A stretch of DNA of 35,595 nt from Clostridia bacterium (GTDB lineage: Bacteria; Bacillota; Clostridia; Oscillospirales; CAG-272): the NCBI GenBank assembly GCA_017468385.1, contig JAFUIQ010000055.1:1-35595 (forward strand). The letters run 5' to 3'. Numbering within the stretch: position 1 is the stretch's first letter; each line of letters begins with the position of its first letter. Below are positions 4,057-35,595 of the stretch, one piece after another. The notes under the pieces are model-generated. The model was not told the origin of the DNA, searched no databases, and saw only the letters and a list, made by a program, of their open reading frames with translations. A program made the translations under genes and the position numbers.

Positions 4057-4824
4057 ATGAAAATCGGAGCACAGCTTTTCACTGTCCGCGAATCCTGCAC
4101 CACCCTGGACGATTTTGCCCAAACACTGGACCGCGTGGCCGATATGGGCTACACCACTGTACAGGTGTCCGGCACCTGCGCCTATGAGGCGGACTGGCTG
4201 GCAGAGCAGCTGAAGCGCACCGGTCTGACTTGTGACCTCACTCACTTCAATCTGGACCGCATCCGGAACGAGACCGACCTGGTGGTCAAAGAACATAACA
4301 CCTTCGGATGCAAATACATCGGCGTGGGCTCCATGCCGAACGATTACCGCGGCAGCGCCGCCGGCGTGGAGAGGTTCGTGGCAGACACCGCCGCCGCCGC
4401 CAAGCGCATCAAGGAGTTGGGCTCCACCTTCATGTATCACAACCACTCCTTTGAATACGAAAAAGCGGAAGACGGCCGCACCTATATGGAGATGCTGTCC
4501 GATCTCTTCGCCCCCGGTGAGATGGGCTTCACTCTGGACACCTACTGGGTCAAGCACGGCGGATACGATCCCGTGGAGGAAATCAAGCGTCTGAGCGGCC
4601 GCATTCCCTGCGTGCATTTCAAGGATATGGAAATCCTTCCCGACGGCACCAAGCGATTCACCTGGGTGGGCGGCGGTATTCTGGATTTCGAGGCCATCAT
4701 CGCCACGCTGGAGAATACCGGCACGGATTACGCCTTCATCGAGCAGGATAACTGCTGGGGCGAGGATCCCTTCGTTTGCCTGAAGAAGAGCTACGACTAT
4801 CTGAGATCCCTCGGCTTGAACTGA
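4057..4824 (+). CDS. Sugar phosphate isomerase/epimerase-like TIM barrel protein
   Basis: A 255-aa protein starting MKIGAQLFTVR after AAGGAG. It fits the xylose-isomerase-like TIM-barrel superfamily (COG1082, the IolE/hydroxypyruvate isomerase group): MYHNHSFEYE supplies strand-end His/Glu, FTLDTYWVKHGG an Asp and His, VHFKDME another His/Asp, and FIEQDN the terminal metal-binding Glu. These enzymes bind a divalent metal and isomerise or epimerise sugars or inositol derivatives. The precise substrate cannot be called. The next gene is an SGNH esterase 65 bp downstream on the same strand, separated by a hairpin without a T tract; the two may be co-transcribed and act on deacylated sugars, which is inference. 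Confidence 0.88.
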   Translation: MKIGAQLFTVRESCTTLDDFAQTLDRVADMGYTTVQVSGTCAYEADWLAEQLKRTGLTCDLTHFNLDRIRNETDLVVKEHNTFGCKYIGVGSMPNDYRGSAAGVERFVADTAAAAKRIKELGSTFMYHNHSFEYEKAEDGRTYMEMLSDLFAPGEMGFTLDTYWVKHGGYDPVEEIKRLSGRIPCVHFKDMEILPDGTKRFTWVGGGILDFEAIIATLENTGTDYAFIEQDNCWGEDPFVCLKKSYDYLRSLGLN

Positions 4825-4831
4825 ACAAAAG

Positions 4832-4855
4832 CGGGCAGCGGTCACACGCTGCCCG
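4832..4855 (+). terminator. Intergenic 9-bp hairpin, weak terminator or attenuator
   Basis: CGGGCAGCG and CGCTGCCCG pair perfectly around a 6-nt loop, just after the isomerase stop codon. No T tract follows, so it may slow or protect the transcript rather than end it. Confidence 0.45.
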
Positions 4856-4889
4856 TATTGCGTATATCGTTTGGAAAGGAACCATTGGC

Positions 4890-5579
4890 ATGAGAATTCT
4901 CTTTATTGGAAACAGCTATACTTATTACAACCGCATGCCCGAAACGCTGGCGCACATAGCCGAGGCGAAGGGCATGGACTGGGTGGTGGAATCGGTGACG
5001 AAGGGCGGCTGGTCCTTTGCTCATTACATCAATCCGGAAAACGAAATGCACGCCCCGCTGAAGGAAAAACTGGCACAGGCATGGGACTGCATCCTTCTGC
5101 AGGAGCAGAGTCTGCGACCCGTGGATGGACGCGAGACGTTTCTGCGCACCGCCGAGGCGCTGTGCGGGATGATCTCTCCCCGCCCGGCGAAGCTGATCTA
5201 CTACGTTACCTGGGGACGGGATGATGCCAGCCCGCAATTGGAAAAACTGGGGATATCCCGCATCACCATGACGGAGAAGCTCCGCGATGCCTATGCGGAA
5301 GCCGCCGCACGGACGGGCGGAATTCTGTCCGATGTGGGCGGAGCCTTTGCTTACACCCGTGCTCACTTTCCTCATCTGCCCCTGTATCACACCGACGGAT
5401 CCCATCCCTCCCCCGCGGGATCCTATCTGGCGGCGCTGATCCATTTCCACGCCATCACGGGAGCACTACCCAGGGAAATCCGCTATGTCCCCGAAGGAAT
5501 GGATACGGGCGCACTTAAGGAGATCCTCCGTTGTGCCGCGGAATTTCTCGCCGAAAATGAAAAATCGGCAAAAAAATAA
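4890..5579 (+). CDS. SGNH/GDSL-family hydrolase
   Basis: 229 aa starting MRILFIGNSYTYYNRMP, with GGAAAGGAA before the ATG. GNSYT (residues 6-10) is the block I motif with the nucleophile Ser; LLQEQS resembles the block III region, and D169-G-S-H172 followed by PSPAGSYLAA is the block V Asp-x-x-His of SGNH hydrolases. The Asn in place of the GDS aspartate is usual for a clostridial/Bacteroidetes subgroup (DUF4886-like). No signal peptide is visible, so it is probably a cytoplasmic esterase or sugar deacetylase. It is 65 bp downstream of the isomerase-like gene. Substrate unknown. Confidence 0.88.
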   Translation: MRILFIGNSYTYYNRMPETLAHIAEAKGMDWVVESVTKGGWSFAHYINPENEMHAPLKEKLAQAWDCILLQEQSLRPVDGRETFLRTAEALCGMISPRPAKLIYYVTWGRDDASPQLEKLGISRITMTEKLRDAYAEAAARTGGILSDVGGAFAYTRAHFPHLPLYHTDGSHPSPAGSYLAALIHFHAITGALPREIRYVPEGMDTGALKEILRCAAEFLAENEKSAKK

Positions 5580-32067: not shown

Positions 32068-32742
32068 TCACAGAATGCCGAACAGAATGAGCCCCACCGT
32101 ATTGATGGCAAAATTCGCAAACATATGCACAATCCAGGAGGGATATATGCTCTCGCTTCTCTCATTGAGGAAATTGAAAATGCATCCGCCGATGGCAAGC
32201 CCCGCCATGGCCAGAAGATAGATCCAGATGTTGAACCATCCGCCTGTCATCCCCACATGATAGAGAGCAAAGGCGGCGGCGCTGAACAGATAGGCAAATC
32301 TCCGTCCCGCCTCCTTTTTCAAGGTAAGAAAGGCAAAGCCGCGGAAAAAGAATTCCTCCAGGAGCGAGTTGACAAAGGATATGTACACGGCCACATAGAT
32401 AAAATTCTCCGCCGTCACTCCCGTGCCCCCCGTCAGGGAATCTCGTATACCGGACAGATCGATATAATCCCCCAGCAAAAAATATACTCCTAACACCACG
32501 GTGAACACGCCCACGCCCAACACAAGAGCAATCAGCCCATCCCTCCCCCGGAAGGAAAACAGTTTTTTGAGATGGACCGCCTTCCCTCTGTACAAAAGGA
32601 AATACAGCATGGGCAAAAGAAGAAACAGCCCGATTTTGATGATGGATTTATACAGATACGGCGGCTGCCATATACCGTCCACCACGCACATCAGCAAAGT
32701 GGACAGCACAACGGACACAATCGCGTAGTTCTTCGCTTTCAT
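32068..32742 (-). CDS. CPBP-family intramembrane protease
   Basis: 224 aa from ATG 32742 (GGGAGGAATTGT upstream). About seven to eight membrane helices with the three Abi/CPBP motifs: SLLEEFFFRGF (EExxxR), FALYHVGM (FxxxH) and IVHMFANFAINT (HxxxN), which make the glutamate-type active site. Relatives process prenylated CAAX proteins or act in bacteriocin immunity. It lies 25 bp after a methyltransferase-like gene of the isoprenylcysteine family, an echo of eukaryotic CAAX processing, where a Rce1 protease and Ste14 methyltransferase work in sequence. Bacterial substrates are unknown. Confidence 0.92.
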   Translation of the reverse strand: MKAKNYAIVSVVLSTLLMCVVDGIWQPPYLYKSIIKIGLFLLLPMLYFLLYRGKAVHLKKLFSFRGRDGLIALVLGVGVFTVVLGVYFLLGDYIDLSGIRDSLTGGTGVTAENFIYVAVYISFVNSLLEEFFFRGFAFLTLKKEAGRRFAYLFSAAAFALYHVGMTGGWFNIWIYLLAMAGLAIGGCIFNFLNERSESIYPSWIVHMFANFAINTVGLILFGIL

Positions 32743-32767
32743 ACAATTCCTCCCATCACGAACCTTG

Positions 32768-33439
32768 TCACCATACATAGGGGATCAGGCGGTATTTTAC
32801 TTTCTCTTTGTACGCCCGGTAGCCCGCCAGCTCCTTCTCCAGAAAGGCTTCCTCGTGCTTGATCCTTTGCGCGATCAGGAAAGGATAGGCGAGGAAAATC
32901 ACCAAGGAAATCAGCGACCCGAGCACCAGGGGCATGGACAAAAACAGAAGCACCGTGGCGCTGTACATGGGATGGCGGACGATGCCGTACAGGCCCGTGT
33001 CGATGACCTTCTGATTTTCCTGCACCTCAATGGTGCGGGACAGATAGGTGTTCTCCCGCAAAACCTCCGCATACAATCCGTAGGCGATCAAAAACGCCGC
33101 GGCGCCAGCGATAGACACAGTTTTGGGCATCGGCAGCCATCCAAAACGGAAATCCAGTCCCGCCAGGATGAATCCGACAAGGAACATAAGCCCGCTCAGC
33201 TTGACCACCAGCTGCTGTTCCCCCTGCTTTTCCCTGGCGTTCAGCCGGGATCTCAGAAGATCGGGATTTCGGCACATCATAACAATGCCGGCCAAAAACA
33301 TGGGCACGAACAAAATGGTCATCAAAAGCCATCCGGCGGGGAATGCAAAGGTACCGGCGGGCAAGAAAATCAACAGTCCCACCAGCACCACGCCCAGCGT
33401 GAATTTCAAAATGGCCTGCACAAACAGTTTTGCGCTCAT
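32768..33439 (-). CDS. Isoprenylcysteine carboxyl methyltransferase-like membrane protein
   Basis: 223 aa from ATG 33439 (AGGAGGACG upstream). Five or so helices; the C-terminal GLYGIVRHPMYSATVLLFLSMPLVLGS and RIKHEEAFLEKELAGYRAYKEKVKYRLIPYVW are the SAM-binding signature of the ICMT/PEMT (Ste14) family. Such bacterial proteins methylate lipids or unknown small molecules. It is the first gene of a two-gene operon with the CPBP protease, with its own promoter. Confidence 0.9.
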   Translation of the reverse strand: MSAKLFVQAILKFTLGVVLVGLLIFLPAGTFAFPAGWLLMTILFVPMFLAGIVMMCRNPDLLRSRLNAREKQGEQQLVVKLSGLMFLVGFILAGLDFRFGWLPMPKTVSIAGAAAFLIAYGLYAEVLRENTYLSRTIEVQENQKVIDTGLYGIVRHPMYSATVLLFLSMPLVLGSLISLVIFLAYPFLIAQRIKHEEAFLEKELAGYRAYKEKVKYRLIPYVW

Positions 33440-33523: not shown

Positions 33524-33625
33524 AAAAAACAGCACCCGCAAAGGGGTGCTGGTTGGGTGAGATGCTCGACCGAAATCACACCGACATCCAACGCTTGTTC
33601 TGTACGACAAATTGGAATTTATCTA
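33524..33625 (-). repeat. Cassette-end element C1
   Basis: First of three related elements. Read on the minus strand: GTTAGATAAA, a 33-nt core (33618-33586) starting ATTCCAAT and ending GTTGGAT, a 27-nt spacer, ACCCAAC (33558-33552), then the terminator stem CAGCACCC/GGGTGCTG with TTTTTT. Within the core, ATTCCAA pairs with TTGGAT (one bulged base) and TTTGT with ACAAG. It lies just after the stop codon of the remnant at 33632. Confidence 0.85.
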
Positions 33626-33631
33626 ACTGTT

Positions 33632-33715
33632 TTATAATTTAATAACTGCATCAAGACCAAGCGTAAGGGCGTCTCTTTTTTTTAATTCAAGTTTGTCTAT
33701 CTCTTGATTATCTTT
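33632..33715 (-). pseudogene. 3' remnant of another cassette gene
   Basis: Past the VanZ stop codon the minus strand keeps coding in a different frame: CEKDNQEIDKLELKKRDAL then TLGLDAVIKL and TAA at 33634-33632. The segment has normal protein character (amphipathic Lys/Glu/Leu), ends just before element C1 exactly as the kinase-like genes end before C2 and C3, and has no start codon of its own. I read it as the tail of a gene whose front was replaced when the vanZ-like gene arrived. It could also be chance coding; it is only ~28 codons. Confidence 0.45.
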
Positions 33716-34263
33716 TTCGCACCCAAAAGAATTGTTGTGGAAATCACAATGCCCACTGAGTTCAAAATAACATCGTTCATATCAAATGCTCTGCCGAATA
33801 TAGGTTGTAAAACCTCAATAACAGCAACAGCAACAAGTCCTCTGATAACACATTTCTCCCATGTAGGGGCTTTCTGCGATAACGGATACAAGATACCAAA
33901 GGGCAGGAACATCAAAAAGTTTCCGATTGTTTCGCCGCTGATATTGTTGACGAAATCTAATGCAAAGTCAAATACTCCACCAAACCAATTTATCGTAATA
34001 CCGGAATTCCAAGGATAGAAAAGGTTATACCAAAAAATGTGCATCAAGTCCAGACCAATAACCAAACAAACAAGCCCCGTGATATAGCAAACAAAAGCAC
34101 ATGAGAACAATTGTCTGCTGATAGGGGTTTCCTTGTCTTTTCTAAATCGGATAATACCGTAAATCGCACCCACAATCAATGCAATAGGTAGTGCTTGCAG
34201 GAAGAAACCTATGTATGTGTCAAAAAAGAAATATTGAAAATTCATATCTTCTGGGAAATACAT
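33697..34263 (-). CDS. VanZ-like membrane protein
   Basis: 188 aa from ATG 34263 (AAGGTGA at good spacing; a GTG three codons earlier overlaps it). Four to five membrane helices with the VanZ family pattern: ETIGNFLMFLPFGILYPL, then IEVLQPIFGRAFDMNDVILNSVG, where the Glu, Arg and Asp/Asn positions are conserved. VanZ confers low-level teicoplanin resistance in Tn1546; chromosomal homologues are of unknown role in the envelope. Base composition is AT-rich, unlike the window's core genes. It has its own promoter and is the first complete gene of the cassette-like region. Confidence 0.9.
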   Translation of the reverse strand: MYFPEDMNFQYFFFDTYIGFFLQALPIALIVGAIYGIIRFRKDKETPISRQLFSCAFVCYITGLVCLVIGLDLMHIFWYNLFYPWNSGITINWFGGVFDFALDFVNNISGETIGNFLMFLPFGILYPLSQKAPTWEKCVIRGLVAVAVIEVLQPIFGRAFDMNDVILNSVGIVISTTILLGAKKIIKR

Positions 34264-34302
34264 AATGCTCACCTTGTCATATTTTTGTTATTTAACACTT
34301 CT

Positions 34303-34330
34303 ATTATACCATATTTTTCGCCGAAATCAA
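34303..34330 (-). promoter_or_regulatory. Promoter of the VanZ-like gene
   Basis: Minus strand TTGATT (34330-34325), 16-bp spacer, TATAAT (34308-34303). Confidence 0.7.
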
Positions 34331-34363
34331 CCGCCTCTTTTTCACAGATCGCCGCAAAAAAGC

Positions 34364-34428
34364 GGGAGGCGAAACGCCTCCCCTACAAAAATAATATGGT
34401 CTATCGTAGGGGAGGGGTCTCCCCTCCC
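34364..34428. repeat. REP-like paired palindrome 1
   Basis: GGGAGGCG-AAA-CGCCTCCC plus CTAC, a 19-bp AT-rich centre, then GTAG plus GGGAGGGG-TCT-CCCCTCCC: two hairpins in mirror orientation. The GTAGGGG/CCCCTAC ends match the second element at 35222. Non-coding, dispersed-repeat type. Confidence 0.75.
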
Positions 34429-34434
34429 GAAAAC

Positions 34435-34514
34435 AAAAACCAGCACCCGCAAAGGGGTGCTGGTTGGGTGGGTTGTCCAAAATCTGCCCCGTTCGGCAAA
34501 TTGGAATTTATCAA
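34435..34514 (-). repeat. Cassette-end element C2
   Basis: Same order as C1 on the minus strand: GATAAATTCCAATTTG start, 33-nt core (34507-34475), only 5 nt of spacer (22 nt fewer than C1 and C3), ACCCAAC (34469-34463), terminator stem CAGCACCC/GGGTGCTG. The core folds as CCAATTTGCC with GGCAGATTTTGG, so the inner stem TGCC/GGCA differs from C1 (TGT/ACA) by paired changes. The distal box is TTTGGAC instead of GTTRRRY. Confidence 0.85.
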
Positions 34515-34518
34515 ACAC

Positions 34519-34540
34519 AAGGAGAAAGTGTTTTCTCCTT
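34519..34540 (-). terminator. Hairpin directly after the kinase-like gene
   Basis: AAGGAGAAA and TTTCTCCTT pair around a 4-nt loop immediately past the stop codon; only a weak T-rich tail (TTGTGTTTG) follows on the minus strand, and the stronger C2 terminator lies further on. Confidence 0.6.
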
Positions 34541-35091
34541 CATAAATTAAATTTTTCTTGAATCATTTTGGCAACCACATTGGGCGGAAGTTTTGAATTA
34601 TCAATTTTTATATAGTTATCAAACGGAATTTCACCATCAAAACTTTCAAGTCGGTATTTGGTATCCTCGTTGATAAGCCTTTGGTTCGACACTTCAATGT
34701 CCCTTTTCGATGCTTTGTTTTGTAAGCGATTTTCGGTGACATTTCGTTCTAATCTAATTTCACGAGGAGCAACAAGTTCCACATAGTAAAACTCTGTATT
34801 ATAGGGTTCGAAAATGCTTTTCACATATTCAATGTAATCCCAATCCGCTTGTTGGTCAAAAGCCCACATATATGTAAAAATCATTCCGTAGCAATCTGAC
34901 TTCGCAAATTCCTCAAAAACCACCTGACGAAGTCTGTTAATTGCTTTTCCATTATACTGACCAAAGATTTCTATTACGGGTTCGATAGTCATATGATTGT
35001 GAAACAATCTCAATCCCGTGAGTTTCATAAGTTCCTGCCCAACAGTCATTTTACCGACAGCGGCATTACCTATCATAAATAATAATTTCAT
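34540..35091 (-). CDS. P-loop nucleoside/shikimate-kinase-like protein
   Basis: 183 aa from ATG 35091 (AAAGGGCGATAATA upstream). MKLLFMIGNAAVGKMTVGQEL is a Walker A loop (GxxxxGK), and LFHNHMTIEPVIEIFG, YYVELVAPREIRLERNVTENR form the lid and base-contacting regions of small AAA_33/shikimate-kinase-like ATPases. These are common accessory proteins that phosphorylate small molecules, including some antibiotics, but the substrate is not readable. AT-rich, own promoter, and followed by element C2. Confidence 0.82.
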   Translation of the reverse strand: MKLLFMIGNAAVGKMTVGQELMKLTGLRLFHNHMTIEPVIEIFGQYNGKAINRLRQVVFEEFAKSDCYGMIFTYMWAFDQQADWDYIEYVKSIFEPYNTEFYYVELVAPREIRLERNVTENRLQNKASKRDIEVSNQRLINEDTKYRLESFDGEIPFDNYIKIDNSKLPPNVVAKMIQEKFNL

Positions 35092-35153
35092 TATTATCGC
35101 CCTTTTTCTGCAATAAGATGTGTGCAAAAAATTCAAGTTTATCTAACAATTAC

Positions 35154-35181
35154 ATTATATCATAAAAATCCCAAAAAGCAA
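35154..35181 (-). promoter_or_regulatory. Promoter of the kinase-like gene
   Basis: Minus strand TTGCTT (35181-35176), 16-bp spacer, TATAAT (35159-35154). The leader then contains GTTAGATAAACTTGAATTTT (35152-35133), close to the GTTAGATAAATTCCAATTTG that begins element C1. Confidence 0.65.
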
Positions 35182-35221
35182 CCGGGACGGCGGGGTTCTT
35201 TGCAAATGGAACCGCACTTAC

Positions 35222-35271
35222 CGTAGGGGCGAACTGCGTTCGCCCGCGGGAGACCACAGGTCTCCCCTACG
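35222..35271. repeat. REP-like paired palindrome 2
   Basis: CGTAGGGGCGAAC...GTTCGCCC joined to GGGAGACC-ACA-GGTCTCCC with CCTACG at the end: two hairpins bounded by inverted GTAGGGG/CCCCTAC. Related to 34364-34428 but with the hairpins in the opposite order. Confidence 0.75.
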
Positions 35272-35277
35272 AAAAGG

Positions 35278-35378
35278 AAAAACAGCACCCACCGAAATGA
35301 GTGCTGGTTGGGTATGATATAGCAGCAAATTTACACCAACATTCAACGCCTATTCAGCTCGACCTATTGGAATTGGTC
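35278..35378 (-). repeat. Cassette-end element C3
   Basis: Aligns with C1 without gaps over the core and spacer: 33-nt core (35373-35341) from ATTCCAAT to GTTGAAT, 27-nt spacer, ACCCAAC (35313-35307), stem CAGCACYC/GRGTGCTG and a T run. Lies ten bases past the stop codon of the last gene. Confidence 0.85.
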
Positions 35379-35382
35379 AGTA

Positions 35383-35595
35383 TTACAACAGCTTTATCTC
35401 ATTTGCAATCATAGCCACGTTTTTGGCGTTGGTATCAATTTTAATGGTACCCAATGCTTGATACATCGGTATTCTTGCTATGCTTCGCTCAATTATATCT
35501 TCAGAACGGATACCTCTTTCTACATCCATTGCCAATCTTTCACACAGAGTCTTTTCATCCGCTACAAGCGAGACGCATTTCACCTCACAGTTCTG
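35383..35595 (-). CDS. Kinase-like protein, C-terminal part only
   Basis: The frame is open from the window edge (35595) to TAA at 35383, 70 codons: NCEVKCVSLVADEKTLCERL, then ERSIARIPMYQALGTIKIDT and VAMIANEIKLL. The VSLVADEKTL...ERS...KIDT order is that of the C-terminal half of small P-loop kinases (AAA_17/AAA_33 type), where a lid Arg and a final IDT strand occur. The Walker A part must lie beyond the window. AT-rich and followed by element C3, so it is the third unit of the cassette-like array. Confidence 0.7.
   Translation of the reverse strand, partial: QNCEVKCVSLVADEKTLCERLAMDVERGIRSEDIIERSIARIPMYQALGTIKIDTNAKNVAMIANEIKLL

Follow-up and report, generated by a model that had tools for sequence, protein, structure and literature searches.

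A probable site-specific, integron-like gene-cassette system in Clostridia

Introduction

The closest described counterparts of the locus reported here are integrons (IntI, attI, attC), the dif modules (pdif) of Acinetobacter and the integrative elements found at the 3' ends of ribosomal genes. With integrons the locus shares mostly single-ORF cassettes in the same orientation, a promoter-like sequence ahead of them, a fixed junction and, in three elements, the placing of an integrase gene next to the first site. It differs from them in the site, the integrase family and the host range, and also in having the integrase gene upstream and pointing at the array, and many platform copies per array. 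In the dif modules, short sites surround single genes that are possibly moved by a trans-acting recombinase; the same description applies here, except that our cassettes stand head to tail behind the promoter-like sequence of a platform. Finally, one host element (in genome G124) resembles the integrative elements in its place behind rpsI and in carrying an excisionase-like gene, a tyrosine integrase and ArdA, whereas its cargo is an exchangeable cassette array directly 3' of the integrase gene.

Integrons are almost missing from Firmicutes according to the available text of the IntegronFinder 2.0 survey (PMC9024848), so how these bacteria gain single accessory genes has been unclear. The array studied here suggests a second, so far unrecognised way for bacteria to trade single genes, and searches of the open PMC literature, judged by titles and the openings of abstracts, brought up no description of such cassettes in Clostridia. 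We propose, with a probability of about 0.72, a site-specific, integron-like gene-cassette system of Clostridia.

Results and discussion

Three cassette-type units at a contig end

The window, i.e., the whole stretch of DNA analysed, is the entire contig C55 (35,595 bases) of a 2.2-Mb genome in 62 contigs. Three related elements that had been predicted at its right end (33524-33625, 34435-34514, and 35278-35378) were confirmed, all on the minus strand, as was their position 3' of the stop of three different AT-rich genes, each with a terminator-like stem. They belong to three cassette-type units laid out as a gene, a copy of GATAAATTCCAATTTGTCG (the cassette-end site, D) and the stem. The unit had been taken to be a 33-nt "attC-like" fold; the core actually shared is GATAAATTCCAATTTGTCG, at the gene-proximal end, and a partner site before the next gene (U2, read 35143-35128) was absent from the original prediction. 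The features are as follows, a slash marking the junction.

33530..33551, minus strand: terminator-like stem behind D1 (from the sequence)
33605..33623, minus strand: D1, cassette-end site GATAAATTCC/AATTTGTCG (pattern search and script)
33683..33697, minus strand: U-like remnant GACAAACTTGAATTA with 2 mismatches, directly 3' of the VanZ-like gene and before D1
33697..34272, minus strand: VanZ-like gene of unit 1 (PF04892, E 8.2e-15)
34441..34462, minus strand: terminator-like stem behind D2 (from the sequence)
34494..34512, minus strand: D2, cassette-end site GATAAATTCC/AATTTGCCG (pattern search and script)
34503..35133, minus strand: cassette 2, both ends present, 631 bp, with a single ORF (34540-35091) making up 93% (script)
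35128..35143, minus strand: U2, platform half-site and cassette start GATAAACTTG/AATTTT, before the unit 2 gene (pattern search and script)
35154..35181, minus strand: promoter-like part of the platform, TTGCTT-16-TATAAT, 10 nt ahead of U2 (recognised by eye, coordinates by script)
35283..35306, minus strand: terminator-like stem behind D3 (from the sequence)
35360..35378, minus strand: D3, degenerate cassette-end site GACCAATTCC/AATAGGTCG, with AATAGG for AATTTG (pattern search and script)
35369..35595, minus strand: cassette 3, the 3' part of a P-loop kinase-like gene broken off at the contig end (homology)

Between 33401 and 35595, two copies of the D core (at most 2 mismatches, a threshold that fails to pick up the degenerate D3 at 35360-35378) and one of the U core were observed, where 500 shuffles for each core gave means of 0.016 and 0.010, respectively. 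The ORF product of cassette 2 matched no Pfam family, cassette 3 is homologous to the AAA_18 cassette of locus L041 and others, and no U site is recognisable in the sequence upstream of the VanZ-like gene. In the source genome, contigs C28 and C7 carry more copies of the site close to their left ends, and others are found in C22; thus C55, C28, and C7 terminate in or beside such repeats. A contig end likewise falls within 1.5 kb in 14 of the 30 site loci examined, and the repeats may help explain broken assemblies. The window array has no neighbouring recombinase and is best seen as an orphan copy in partial decay.

Adjoining the array, at 32068-33439 of the window, are a CAAX-protease-like gene (PF02517) and an isoprenylcysteine-methyltransferase-like gene (PF04140). 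G-rich repeats resembling dispersed intergenic repeats lie between the cassettes at 34370-34432 and 35220-35275 (GTAGGGGAGG... / GGGAGACC...).

The conserved site and its distribution

What is conserved is a near-palindromic site of 16 to 18 bp, RAYAAATTCC/AATTTGTC, whose junction is fixed ahead of AATTTG. The logo of 96 D sites has its information in RAYAAATTCC/AATTTGTCGA and that of 75 U sites in GATAAACTTG (or GATAAATAAG) followed by AATTTG, partly by construction, the sites having been chosen by these same motifs. Many other D sites have only AATTTGTCG in common.

The D pattern GATAAATTCCAATTTGTCG (at most 2 mismatches) matched 128 of 295 family genomes, an upper figure for arrays, some matches lying inside ordinary genes or standing without other features; the reversed control matched 3. 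A stricter pattern matched 11 of 147 class genomes, the window's own counted. Most of the genomes are fragmentary MAGs. Scanning genome contigs yielded 58 stretches, 54 of them in records titled Clostridia, Clostridiales or Oscillospiraceae bacterium (many ruminant-gut by title) and one each in Butyricicoccus pullicaecorum ET57, a Syntrophomonadaceae MAG, Calditrichales, and Symbiothrix; the last two matches (L104 and L127) may be due to chance. Viral contigs scanned for D and for promoter plus U gave 0 matches.

Platforms and cassettes

Read by eye, the order of a platform is terminator, promoter-like sequence, and half-site (GATAAACTTG/ or GATAAATAAG/), and the cassettes are located behind it; the promoter-like layout seen in the window recurs before many other U sites. 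An exact search for empty platforms matched 3 of 295 genomes and gave no clean empty site: two of the matches are cassette starts, and the other comes after the stop codon of a gene. In L180 (G352), L196 (G732), and L204 and L208 (G817), a third kind of platform was noticed (TTTTACAATCTATATAGATA..., GACAAATAAG/), which is seemingly common to more than one family, with different cassettes.

A cassette extends from AATTTG, ribosome-binding site, and ATG to the stop codon and RAYAAATTCC. The 48 cassettes with both ends have a median length of 539 bp; the distance from AATTTG to the start codon is 20 nt and that from the stop to the junction 16 nt (medians), and a single ORF fills more than 80% of the cassette in 40. 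Pfam assigned the cassette proteins (n = 47) to GNAT (PF00583; 8), HTH_3 (3), DUF3784 (3), AAA_18 (2), and NTP_transf_2 (2), with single cases such as a beta-lactamase-like hydrolase and VanZ. At least one cassette, with an XRE-type gene, has its own promoter-like sequence. Bare cassette-cassette junctions without a platform occur in L122 and G124, and those in L036 and L208 resemble them. The original prediction gave every gene its own promoter and terminator: a promoter-like sequence is indeed present in the window, where each gene has one because the platform is repeated, and elsewhere cassettes adjoin at bare junctions. As far as sequence can tell, the cassette anatomy, the promoter-like layout, and the fixed boundary considered below are real features of these arrays.

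A fixed junction between changing flanks

Dropping sites with fewer than 70 left or 76 right bases, together with identical copies, reduced 200 sites to 171 distinct ones, and their flanks were classed as shared at 80% or more and as not shared below 60%. The left flank was shared and the right was not in 254 U-U pairs, the right was shared and the left was not in 675 D-D pairs, both were shared in 10 pairs and 13,576 pairs fell into no class, these pairs being not independent events but mostly constant flanks around different genes. More directly, one cassette was found in different places in 14 D-D, 5 U-U, and 1 D-U pairs, which derive from kinase, GNAT, nucleotidyltransferase, and XRE-type cassettes and thus, with so few cassette families, from few events. 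The window closes on the 3' part of the kinase cassette, which stands behind both platform types (unlike each other as far as the half-site) and is followed on the right by several different neighbours.

BLAST centred on the sites gave 7 left and 12 right boundaries once duplicates were removed, a few of them repeats of a single comparison. Every boundary fell at the site or farther out, in platform DNA that both sides share, although ends as much as 40 nt inside the cassette would have passed the filter, to which exchanges deeper within the cassette are invisible. Of the 24 left pairs, 17 had turned out to be one stretch of DNA paired with itself, as had 16 of the 28 right ones, and L071 with L107 and L047 with L135 are such cases among the remainder. 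Moreover, G043, from the window's genus, and G124, from another, have the same platform, with agreement running through the 3' flank of the integrase gene, the promoter-like sequence, and GATAAACTTG/AATTTG, followed by different cassettes. Exchange of units with constant breakpoints, as originally predicted, found support in comparisons between species and genera, where the same cassette has different flanks and the change falls at the site; the boundary itself lies at the palindrome ATTCC/AATTTG instead of at GTTRRRY.

One could also see here repeated promoter and terminator modules, the genes between them being swapped by homologous recombination across long flanks and the 16-bp site being the inner edge of the homology. 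The long conserved platform flanks in the 254 U-U and 675 D-D pairs would suit such a process, as would several shared cassettes that also have platform in common (62-85 bp on their left side or, on their right, as much as 162 bp). It is, however, difficult to reconcile with the kinase cassette, whose two platform types are unlike as far as the half-site, with bare junctions without a platform, and with a lincosamide cassette whose start stays at AATTTG in four contexts that differ in their left flanks (see below). We regard this account as unlikely and keep site-specific exchange as the preferred reading.

Candidate recombinases and host elements

A platform lies directly 3' of a tyrosine integrase gene in three related elements (L130, G043, and G124), those of G043 and G124 being near-identical (integrase-to-half-site segment, in two genera). 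Judged by sequence, platforms are placed directly behind integrase genes of integrated elements and cassettes are shared between genomes. Close relatives of the L130 integrase were found in 2 of 146 family genomes. The G124 element, 3' of rpsI, carries ArdA, the excisionase-like gene, the tyrosine integrase, a 334-aa gene without a Pfam family, and, besides that integrase, another tyrosine recombinase of divergent sequence (TyrRec1); the annotated part of the element showed no relaxase.

The catalytic residues of TyrRec1 (R151, K179, H224-R227, H291, and Y301) are invariant and in order in four sequences, one of them partial. Its SAM-like domain scored 27.4 bits in G133 (cut-off, 22.3) and 21.6, just below, in G124, and a PDB profile search was weak, with Cre as the best match (E 0.059). 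Searches for TyrRec1 with E cut-offs of 1e-8 or 1e-10 gave matches in 4 of 146 family, 15 of 394 order, and 5 of 48 array-bearing genomes, and none in the window's genome. A cassette lies directly before a TyrRec1-like gene in G133, where the end site, read by eye, is degenerate, and in G352, from another family. TyrRec1 relatives were also seen in one viral contig, with no sites there, and on five small plasmids, three of which were examined and lack sites; none were found in phages. Such plasmids include the tiny pRGI00233 and Caldicellulosiruptor pATHE02 (L177 and L179), whose TyrRec1-like recombinases are accompanied by no cassette sites. Large serine recombinases lie near other sites in G133 (Pfam), L072 (similarity), and L123 and L202 (by eye). 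The six tyrosine recombinases of the window's genome, which by eye are Xer-like, Tn916-like pairs, and a phage-like one, offered no obvious partner for the array.

Arrays are common and mostly without TyrRec1, so an enzyme present in every host would explain their spread, and the window's genome does encode a Xer-like recombinase. The host's own Xer recombinases might act on a dif-like site and so shift the cassettes, in the manner of the Acinetobacter modules. Yet D was unmatched in 167 of 295 family genomes and is thus not the family's dif, and the cassettes stand head to tail; a search with a degenerate form of the Bacillota dif matched 4 of 29 genomes. We find a role of host Xer proteins doubtful, and favour a tyrosine recombinase borne by the elements themselves.

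Comparison with integrons

The original prediction proposed a mobile cassette array, either integron-like or a new family of recombination sites. The second branch fits our results, and the integron branch fails on boxes and integrase and gains no support from the fold. The RYYYAAC and GTTRRRY boxes are not conserved, the GTTGGAT of the window being GTTGAAT, GTTAAGC, GTTTAAT or GTTAAAC in relatives, and the junction in the logos (96 D, 75 U) is CC, TG or AG before AATTTG, without either box. The paired changes claimed for the 33-nt stem found no support: among 16 distinct variants, in an alignment without element 2 and its shorter spacer, 84.3% of cells pair, no pair is changed on both sides, and the proposed pair 4-31 forms in 1. 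The attC fold was set aside as unsupported, for want of compensatory changes. No Rfam family reached its threshold, the only sub-threshold match being sau-6072 at 35278-35330 (24.1 bits versus 50). With the IntI model TIGR02249, the platform-side integrases scored 43.2 bits (G124) and 64.5 bits (L130), far under the cut-off of 265, so that IntI identity was rejected as well; TyrRec1 gave no match.

A genuine integron remnant (CALIN), its attC sites having diverged strongly, could also account for cassettes that mostly hold one gene, have accessory functions, stand head to tail and follow a promoter-like sequence. Such a remnant is highly improbable in view of these integrase scores, a junction motif of AATTTG instead of GTTRRRY, and a stem without compensatory change. 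The system proposed here works like an integron, with mostly single-ORF cassettes in one orientation, yet fails the tests of integron membership on integrase and site boxes.

Proposed mechanism

In our model, the platform would supply a terminator, a promoter-like sequence, and the left half-site (GATAAACTTG or GATAAATAAG), followed by AATTTG. Mostly single-gene cassettes would sit at /AATTTG behind the platform promoter, which would be active, and could stack with bare junctions. Exchange would pass through a circular cassette and would be the work of a tyrosine recombinase, probably an enzyme that these elements themselves carry. With a defined 16-bp site and a platform, cassettes can be listed, their gene content read, and the enzyme searched for.

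A lincosamide-nucleotidyltransferase cassette shared with phages

A nucleotidyltransferase cassette, annotated as Lnu(D) in a phage record (MN270276.1), was seen in four contexts in which the left flanks differ: two Clostridia genomes, one phage of Streptococcus suis, and one of Erysipelothrix. The four copies agree with one another starting at the first base of AATTTG. The right-hand D-like sequence is kept in three of the four and absent in the Erysipelothrix copy. For three S. suis phages the left end of the BLAST alignment falls at that AATTTG base, and for the Erysipelothrix phage it falls 9 bases before it. Distant lnu(C) relatives in plasmids were rejected as support for the junction, their alignment beginning at query base 112, inside the cassette, and the kinase cassette had no match in plasmids.

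The shared cassette suggests a possible route for a resistance gene into streptococcal and Erysipelothrix phages. We lean, by a little, towards the broader view that an independent Bacillota cassette-capture system, unrelated to IntI and attC, moves single genes between Clostridia, integrated elements, and Streptococcus and Erysipelothrix phages, and has already taken up a lincosamide-resistance gene.

Four enterococcal plasmid records listed (H17 to H20) match only the start of the lincosamide cassette (query 10-138, 82%), including the left site, in unannotated DNA, and are perhaps cassette remnants. In Erysipelothrix phage phi1605 (L211, MF172979.1), the lincosamide-type cassette lies at 4501-5031, between the terminase and portal genes, a place taken by other genes in many related gut phages.
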